DNA of 64,000 nucleotides from Victivallis vadensis (lineage in GTDB: Bacteria > Verrucomicrobiota > Lentisphaeria > Victivallales > Victivallaceae): assembly GCF_003096415.1 (NCBI RefSeq), contig NZ_QEKH01000011.1, positions 62,001 through 126,000 of the forward strand, written 5' to 3'. A program made the translations under genes and the position numbers. A model generated the notes under the pieces. That model was given only the letters and a program-made list of their open reading frames with translations, was not told where the DNA came from and did not search any database. Positions 5,644 to 45,771 of the stretch are shown one piece after another; position 1 is the first letter of the stretch; each line of letters opens with the position of its first letter.

Positions 5644-5672
5644 ATTATACCAAAGAAGACCACTAAAGTCAA
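5644..5672 (-). promoter_or_regulatory. Promoter of the lacI-pilin-hydrolase operon
   Basis: On the minus strand TTGACT (5667-5672), a 17-bp spacer and TATAAT (5644-5649). The predicted start site, near 5637, is at the edge of the palindrome 5623-5636. Confidence 0.75.
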
Positions 5673-5715
5673 GACTCAAACCGATTTTTTTCGTTAAATT
5701 TCAGTGTGCGCCGGT

Positions 5716-5840
5716 TTGCTCCTGCGACGCGAAGCGTCTTTGGAGTGCGTCGCCTTTAGGCTTGCTCCTGCGACGCGAAGCGTCTTTGGAGTGCGTCGCC
5801 TTTGGGCTTGCTCCTGCGACGCGAAGCGTCTTTGAAGTGC
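5716..5840 (+). repeat. 46-bp tandem repeat, about 2.7 units
   Basis: Units begin with TTGCTCCTGCGACGCGAAGC at 5716, 5762 and 5808. Units one and two differ at about one position; the third diverges after about 30 bp. Each unit carries the small hairpin GCGACGCgaaGCGTC. There are no spacers, so it is not a CRISPR. Confidence 0.9.
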
Positions 5841-6263
5841 GGAGATTCATCTCCGCTTTCAAATCGCACGCAAGTCTTATATTTGATTTTGCATCGAAAC
5901 AAGAACAGGCATGGTTCCCGGAGGTACTGCTTTATTAAGTGCAAAAACAGGCATGGTGCCCGGAGGGTAGTGAGCACGGGCTTGGTGTTTTGCGGATGGC
6001 TCCGGGGGACGTCGCGCACGTCCCCCGGACCCCCTCGCCGGTGGCGGGGGCCGGGCCGGTTGCGGAGCACTTCCGCTCGCGGGCGCGGCTTCGCCGCTTA
6101 CTTGTCCGCCTGCGGCGGCCAACCCCTTCAGCGTTCGCTGCGCTCACTACGCCAGGGGGGCTTCGCTCTCTACGTTCGGCTTCGTCACTATCGTTCCTCG
6201 TTATTTTGCGACCGCAAAATAATACCCTCACATTCGTTCGCGGCGCGAACCCGCGCTTATTGT

Positions 6264-6359
6264 GCGCCGCGTAAATGGAGACTTGGCCTTACTCTGCGCC
6301 GCGTAAATGGGAACTTGGCCTTACTCTGCGCCGCGTAAATGGGAACTTGGCCTTACTCC
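6264..6359 (+). repeat. 32-bp tandem repeat, three units
   Basis: Units start at 6264, 6296 and 6328 with GCGCCGCGTAAATGG and end with a CTTGGCCTTACTC stretch. The second long-element copy has two similar units (45608 and 45641) with a 33-bp period and changed distal halves. Confidence 0.88.
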
Positions 6360-6360
6360 T

Positions 6361-6505
6361 CCGGTTTTGAAATTTTTTGCGTAGCAAAAATTTCAAAACC
6401 GTATCCGGCACCGGCACCTTGCCGGTCGGGGGGCCAGGGGGGCCGGGGGGCGAAGCGCCCCCGGTGGGGTTCCGGAACAACGCCCCGGGCCGCCGCAGGC
6501 GAAAT
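6361..6505 (-). repeat. Short gene-flanking hairpin element, copy 1
   Basis: Minus-oriented copy of a family also seen at 15236, 17097, 29949, 30401, 33737 and 59700. It has a T/A-rich stem (GGTTTTGAAATTTTTTGC paired with its reverse complement across GTA), a CCGGCACCTTGCCGG hairpin and a GGGGGCGAAGCGCCCCC hairpin. The GC-rich head end faces the esterase gene that starts at 6588. Confidence 0.8.
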
Positions 6506-6587
6506 CCCCGGGAAATTCTTATAGAATGGTTGCAAACTGTTTTTCGGCTGGTATATTTCAGAAGCCAAACCGGAAAGGAGAGCGATC

Positions 6588-45047: not shown

Positions 45048-45145
45048 TTTTACCTCAATCAGTAAGGCCGCGCGGCCCCCTTGGAGCTTCCGTGCTTTCC
45101 GTGCCAGTCCGTGGACACAATGCCCGGAAAGGCCGGACGGCAACC

Positions 45146-45665
45146 TTGGAGTGCGGAGCCCGAAGGGCTTGCTCCCGCTTCGCGGGAGTAAGATTCATCT
45201 CCGCTTTCCAGTCACGCGTGAGTTTTATGGTTGGCTTGTCATTGCATCAAGAACAGGCAAGGTGCCCGGAGGGTAACAACTTTTGAGCGCAAGAACAGGC
45301 AAGGTGCCCGGAGGGTAGCGAGCACCGCACCTCCGGCCTGCGGATGGCTCCGGGGGACGTCGCGCACGTCCCCCGGACCCCCTCGCCGGTGGCGGAGGCC
45401 GGTCCGGTTGCAGGGCACTTCCGCTCGCGGGCGCGGCTTCGCCGCTTACTTGCCGGGCTGCGCCCGTCAACTCCTCAGCGTTCGCTGCGCTCACTACGCC
45501 GGAGGGGCTTCGCTCACTACGTTCGGCTTCGTCACTATCGTTCCTCGTTACTTGCTGCCGCAAGTAATTCCCTCACATTCGTTCGCGGCGCTGACCGCGC
45601 TTGTTGTGCGCCGCGTAAATGGTGTTACGGCCTTATTTGTGCGCCGCGTAAATGGTGTTGCTGAC
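45146..45665 (+). repeat. Long dispersed intergenic hairpin element, copy B
   Basis: Same order as copy A at 5716-6359: TTGGAGTGCGG-type start with a GCTCCCGC/GCGGGAG hairpin in place of tandem units, two ACAGGCAAGGTGCCCGGAGG motifs, the identical CCGGGGGACGT/ACGTCCCCCGG hairpin (45350-45376), a shared stretch including CGCTCGCGGGCGCGGCTTCG, the hairpin TTACTTGC/GCAAGTAA (45548-45567, sequence changed but pairing kept), and two GCGCCGCGTAAATGG units (45608, 45641). It follows the DUF4105 gene and precedes the pilins. 45048-45145 shows no gene. Confidence 0.85.
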
Positions 45666-45738
45666 CGACCGATGCTTCGCCTGTACTAGTTGCCCGCACG
45701 CCCCCCGGAGGGGCATTGGCGGGCGCACCCGGCAGCGG

Positions 45739-45771
45739 CACCTTGCCGCCACCTTGCCGCCACCTTGCCGC
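45739..45771 (+). repeat. 11-bp tandem repeat, three units
   Basis: CACCTTGCCGC repeats exactly three times at 45739, 45750 and 45761. It resembles the CACCTTGCCGG core of the short hairpin element. Confidence 0.9.

Follow-up and report, generated by a model that had tools for sequence, protein, structure and literature searches.

A structure-conserved, dispersed hairpin-array repeat in the intergenic DNA of Victivallis vadensis, with one subfamily beside pilin-like genes

Introduction

Two intergenic stretches of Victivallis vadensis DNA, both within the window (the whole stretch of 64,000 nucleotides that was analysed), share many segments, among them hairpins whose arms differ between the two. 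What kind of element is this, and why is its pairing kept where its sequence is not? A preliminary description, made from the letters alone, proposed either a structured RNA or a DNA element acting as a hairpin, maintained by selection. Here the family to which both stretches belong is described, its pairing is examined in the genus and beyond, and the explanations are weighed against each other.

Copies and anatomy of the repeat

The two stretches were found where they had been placed, in the same order and orientation, and the match between copy 1 (the 5716-6359 region) and copy 2 (the 45146-45665 region) has an E-value of about 1e-138, so that chance likeness is excluded by far. They are not an isolated pair. 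With copy 1 as a genome query 66 matching pieces were obtained; two more queries and a profile search (nhmmer) of the fetched stretches brought the family in the 5.2 Mb genome of V. vadensis (G000, 87 contigs) to 54 copies or more. The genome-wide collection suggested at the outset has thus kept both original copies as real and replaced a family of two by one of at least 54. No core midpoint lies inside a predicted gene (0 of 53 in the flanking-gene survey), and the flanking genes run in mixed directions with no orientation rule. The copies fall into two groups, A (29, stand-alone) and B (24, adjoining pilin genes), and on the copy tree group B nests within group A. The family is confirmed as a real, structure-conserved, dispersed intergenic repeat, larger than first described.

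Sharp conservation in 30 oriented copies delimits a common core of about 440 positions (about 0.45 kb), running from ...CTTGGAGTGCGGAG to about TGCGCCGCG and corresponding to window positions 5836-6275. On its 5' side stands one of at least two kinds of module, and on its 3' side a variable number of modules ending in CGGCACCTTGCCGCC. The location first given therefore holds and the limits do not: the conserved core begins at about 5836, stretches 5713-5842 and 6262-6358 consist of tandem modules that vary in type and number, and the second interval (45146-45665) omits a further 3' module at 45688-45771. The features of the two copies and their surroundings are as follows.

5644..5672, minus strand: promoter-like site of the LacI gene, TTGACT-17-TATAAT, 11/12; points away from copy 1
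5713..5850, plus strand: copy 1, 5' modules, three in tandem of 46 nt (GGCTTGCTCCTGCGACGCGAAGCGTCTTTGGAGTGCG...); type and number vary between copies
5836..6275, plus strand: copy 1, conserved core, defined by conservation in 30 oriented copies, with nhmmer matches for 54 copies
6002..6028, plus strand: copy 1, hairpin A (CCGGGGGACGT/ACGTCCCCCGG), followed by ACCCCC; other alleles CCGGAGGGC/GCCCTCCGG
6085..6097, plus strand: copy 1, hairpin B, GCGGC/GCCGC; arms complementary in 47/48 copies, three alleles
6106..6118, plus strand: copy 1, hairpin C, CCGCC/GGCGG; complementary in 50/53, two alleles
6125..6156, plus strand: copy 1, helix D2, CCT (6125-6127) with AGG (6154-6156); complementary in 49/50, four allele pairs
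6201..6222, plus strand: copy 1, hairpin E, TTATTTTGCG/CGCAAAATAA; complementary in 53/53, two alleles
6239..6255, plus strand: copy 1, hairpin F with T-rich tail; a terminator-like scan match, the number of such matches being not above that in shuffles
6262..6358, plus strand: copy 1, 3' modules, three of 32 nt (TGCGCCGCGTAAATGG...)
6530..6557, plus strand: promoter-like site of the hydrolase gene, TTGCAA-16-TATATT, 9/12; points away from copy 1
45063..45144 (approximate limits), plus strand: copy 2, 5' module of the other type (CTTCCGTGCTTTCCGTGCCAGTCCGTGG...), common to many stand-alone copies
45145..45620, plus strand: copy 2, conserved core
45350..45376, plus strand: copy 2, hairpin A (CCGGGGGACGT/ACGTCCCCCGG), the same as in copy 1, as first noted
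45433..45445, plus strand: copy 2, hairpin B
45454..45466, plus strand: copy 2, hairpin C, alternative allele CGGGC/GCCCG
45548..45567, plus strand: copy 2, hairpin E, alternative allele TTACTTGC/GCAAGTAA
45604..45771, plus strand: copy 2, 3' modules, ending in CACCTTGCCGC repeats

We also noticed several features at the margins of the core. The C-run that follows hairpin A (6029-6034, ACCCCC) varies with the hairpin, to ACCTCCC or ATCCCC (also in L430-L449), a pattern suggestive of a 5' arm with two alternative pairing partners. A perfect 16-bp hairpin (CGGTTTTGAAATTTTT/AAAAATTTCAAAACCG, window 6362-6401) adjoins copy 1 on its right and is followed by another GC-rich block. On the minus strand the 46-nt 5' modules (5708-5833; L107:3709-3834) score 38.8 bits against the Rfam family Fusobacteriales-1, below its cut-off of 52.1.

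Paired changes in the hairpin arms

In helices B, C, D2 and E both arms change together, with two to four alleles each. The numbers of complementary arms listed above compare with shuffled means of 29.0 (B), 25.3 (C), 21.5 (D2) and 29.9 (E); this shuffle control ignores the relatedness of the copies, which a slid control and counts on a tree do not. When 54 sequences drawn from four species are aligned, 98.4% of 1026 cells are standard pairs, and pairing falls to 41-61% once one side is slid by 1-3 columns. Both-sided changes occur in 12 of the 19 pairs of this alignment, with 141 double-sided changes overall. On a tree of the unpaired columns at least 9 allele changes are needed for B, 13 for C, 17 for D2 and 10 for E, and the 19 helix-allele combinations among 46 copies show that alleles have been shuffled between copies.

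In hairpin E, whose change in both arms (6201-6222 against 45548-45567) was noted in the preliminary description, the exchange TTATTTTG/TTACTTG is a two-allele change in which the arms go together in every one of the 53 copies. At least four helices are shown to have had their arms rewritten as exact Watson-Crick complements. That pairing is kept through paired changes is strongly supported, and the support extends to a second genus.

Occurrence in the genus and order

Diverged copies are present in five congeners (G001, G002, G003, G005 and G006); as contig ends hold many of the copies, the numbers from fragmented assemblies are minimum estimates. Outside Victivallis, a covariance model finds relatives in all five genomes of genus g17, more weakly in g34 and once in g15. 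With a shorter model each g17 genome gives 4-33 matches; at E<=1e-4, 2 of the 48 genera of the order match and the other 46 give none. In g17 the linkers (GGCTTCGCTCaACTCCGgTCGGCTTCG, CCCTCCCAT) and the order of the hairpins are retained, with arms that are many and different, and no pilin gene was found near these copies. A search for a plasmid or phage origin returned no match, nor did an exact-pattern scan of genome_contigs, and a loose linker pattern matched viral contigs only unspecifically. Long tandem repeats of the GTGATGTGGGG type were seen directly left of the only core copy in G003 (L032 1262-1380) and of that in G002 (L033 80-145).

Mobility and ends

The Lnb_N and pilin genes that flank copy 2 are also neighbours in G002, G003 and G005, where a gap of about 300 bp holds no element. 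The site of copy 2 is therefore empty in three congeners, and the simplest reading is that copy 2 was probably inserted in this lineage; the evidence for it is three empty sites, in species whose DNA is about 70% identical, and loss is the less likely alternative. In another Victivallis (L233) the site orthologous to that of copy 1 carries no more than a degenerate form of the element's 5' part. In that stretch, upstream of the orthologous LacI gene, the degenerate part is followed by what appears, read by eye, to be a decayed ketol-acid reductoisomerase gene. The LacI protein beside copy 1 is 90% identical to a protein of an uncultured Victivallis.

G000 has no Y1/RAYT transposase (0 matches to PF01797), in keeping with the report of no transposase at this locus, and a RAYT-driven REP is ruled out by this absence. 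A terminal inverted repeat seen at one stage was an artefact of mixed-orientation alignment and vanished once the copies were oriented, which agrees with the original observation of no clear terminal repeat. The 29 stand-alone copies have no flanking inverted repeat beyond chance 12-14-mers. No target-site duplication or end sequence was recognised, the ends of the element being modular and variable.

Subfamily B and probable pilin inversion switches

A gene for a pilin with an N-methylation motif adjoins 22 of the 24 B copies versus 1 of the 29 A copies. The encoded protein has the beginning of a type IV pilin; 21 B copies adjoin the gene on the left in divergent direction and one on the right, and two are at contig ends. 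In G005 a homologous core is found in cassettes of 0.3-0.5 kb, and the TTCACATACCCGGTATTATGC repeats that bound them lie within the first codons of pilin-like genes. In three of these cassettes ribosome site and ATG lead in frame into the pilin; at least six direct both into a short decoy, and the pilin stands at the other end without a ribosome site.

The inverted sites follow the pattern CATAAT-N4-R-GTATGT-N-AA, which occurs 15 times in G000 and 27 times in G005 and is absent from seven other congeners, the reversed-pattern control giving 0. Paired inverted sites (four pairs found in G000 and nine or more in G005) have a 5-nt centre that is identical within a locus and different between loci, and matching centres within a locus are a requirement of site-specific inversion. 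Homologous cassettes are found in ON and OFF arrangements at different loci in the two species. The first 161 bases of one contig (C45) are identical to the end of a cassette on another (C8). C45 continues into a pilin gene, while C8 continues into the decoy flank already present at the other end of its cassette. Both junctions of one cassette thus appear to be present in the sequenced material, a duplicated locus being the alternative.

From these arrangements the B cassettes appear to be live inversion switches, and they suggest DNA flipping as a means by which Victivallis varies many pilin-like genes; the literature searched contained no report of such flipping in Victivallis. G000 has 13 tyrosine-recombinase matches, which are candidates for the recombinase. 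The stand-alone copies have no inverted sites, which excludes them as inversion switches. Stretches with inversion cassettes are L058-L072 in G005 and L104, L108, L120, L163 and L289 in G000.

Nature of the element

A structured non-coding or cis-acting RNA, read from one strand and with its fold under selection, would account for strong paired changes and conserved unpaired linkers across two genera, and also for hairpin F, whose plus-strand tail is T-rich in both window copies and TTTTT in G005. Selected RNA is expected to show several percent of wobble pairs; wobble is found here in about 4 of the 1026 cells of the 54-sequence alignment (about 0.4%) and, in hairpins C, D' and E of genus g17, in 1 of 446 plus-strand and 5 of 456 minus-strand pairs. 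Helices of selected RNA are usually thought to change through G-U intermediates (PMC8794818), and wobble that is nearly absent on both strands, an indirect argument against RNA, makes exact DNA palindromes the better fit. No promoter-like site was found within either window copy when both were scanned, copy 1 itself lying between two such sites that point outward, and no Rfam family matches the element at gathering score, the sub-threshold matches all lying outside the core. Because of the scarce wobble, the lack of a gene-orientation rule, the missing internal promoter-like site and the missing Rfam match, structured RNA is disfavoured and an RNA function is unlikely, the selected-RNA account as a whole being quite improbable; of the two options first proposed, the DNA hairpin fits best. 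That the core is the decayed coding sequence of a lost mobile element is hardly credible. Chance open frames do cross both window copies, but single-base indels between copies at several columns leave no common reading frame, as first noted, and conservation follows helices and linkers rather than codons.

More weight is due to the proposal that the paired changes arise without selection, template switching in replication copying one arm from the other and gene conversion spreading the alleles of a neutral or selfish repeat. Template switching is documented and can create or repair complementary arms without selection (PMC8794818), and an inverted loop is one of its known footprints (PMC8604942); such an inversion is seen in one case each for hairpins E (TGCC/GGCA) and A. 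The change of whole arms at once into exact complements, and the 19 combinations of helix alleles, would also be expected. Since this mechanism keeps arms complementary without selection, maintenance by selection is not established. Linkers fixed between genera and the same order of hairpins are left unexplained, and we consider this account somewhat unlikely. Less probable again is that the core has a working role in the pilin switch (for example as a one-way terminator, an insulator or a recombination enhancer), with the stand-alone copies as stray derivatives. In its favour, all four intact paired cassettes of G000 contain a B copy, in the G005 order of start codon, core and inverted site, and the terminator-like hairpin F reads toward the pilin in the OFF arrangement only. 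Against it, B nests within A on the tree, the g17 copies are not near pilins, and some paired cassettes of G005 lack most or all of the core, which is therefore not needed for inversion.

The account we favour, and hold with reasonable confidence, is that of a non-autonomous, dispersed, mosaic REP/MITE-like hairpin-array repeat whose hairpins are exact DNA palindromes and whose subfamily B lies in invertible pilin segments. The repeat would spread by copying into intergenic DNA, and its hairpins would matter, or be regenerated, as DNA palindromes rather than as one RNA. Subfamily B would have become part of invertible segments ahead of pilin-like genes. In the ON arrangement, the B core would stand behind a ribosome site and start codon whose reading direction is outward, via the recombination site, into the pilin gene; a flip would disconnect the start from the pilin and bring the hairpin array upstream, where it may also block read-through. 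Inversion is supported by the sequences compared here; the part that the element plays in the switch is inferred. A bolder version, to which we give roughly one chance in a handful, makes the repeat a new class of mobile DNA that is transferred or functions via several single-strand hairpins (free in sequence, with fixed linkers) and now serves as the insulating body in a phase-variable system of pilin switches at many loci in Victivallis.

With more than 100 copies in two genera, the family provides an unusually clean natural test of how pairing persists in DNA repeats, as exactly complementary arms with almost no wobble intermediates could separate selection on RNA from template-switch copying.

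Comparison with known systems

In its behaviour the element is most like REP/BIME or MITE-type elements, and by the features tested it is a member of neither. MITEs, Correia elements and ERIC sequences are non-autonomous, dispersed palindromic repeats with presence or absence at orthologous sites. The Victivallis repeat shares all of these properties, but the terminal inverted repeats of a MITE derived from a DDE transposon were not found at its stand-alone copies, and no target duplication was recognised there. Integron attC sites likewise keep structure while their sequence is free, and act as folded DNA rather than RNA; the hairpins described here do the same in structure and sequence, a resemblance only, and form an array of several.

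DNA inversion decides the joining of pilin and start in Moraxella bovis, as reportedly described by Marrs et al. in 1988 (listed in PMC11868660), and invertible promoters offer a further parallel. Unlike M. bovis, Victivallis has many separate loci with site centres specific to each, and small cassettes of 0.2-0.8 kb that carry a start codon and, mostly, the hairpin array.

With REPs, BIMEs and REPINs the repeat has in common that it is intergenic, high-copy, palindromic, non-coding and a mosaic of modules (PMC3116915, PMC2817692, PMC3733652), and GTAG-type REPs do occur in bacteria of the PVC superphylum (PMC3733652). The repeat unit of a REP, however, is an imperfect palindrome of 20-40 nt with a GTAG/GGAG-type foot. 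Although a 5' hairpin (GGAGTGCGGAGATTCATCTCCGC) is present in the Victivallis element, the conserved unit is nonetheless the 0.45 kb core, in which five or more different hairpins follow each other in a fixed order, in a genome without a RAYT gene, and it is the arms that vary between copies while the linkers are fixed.
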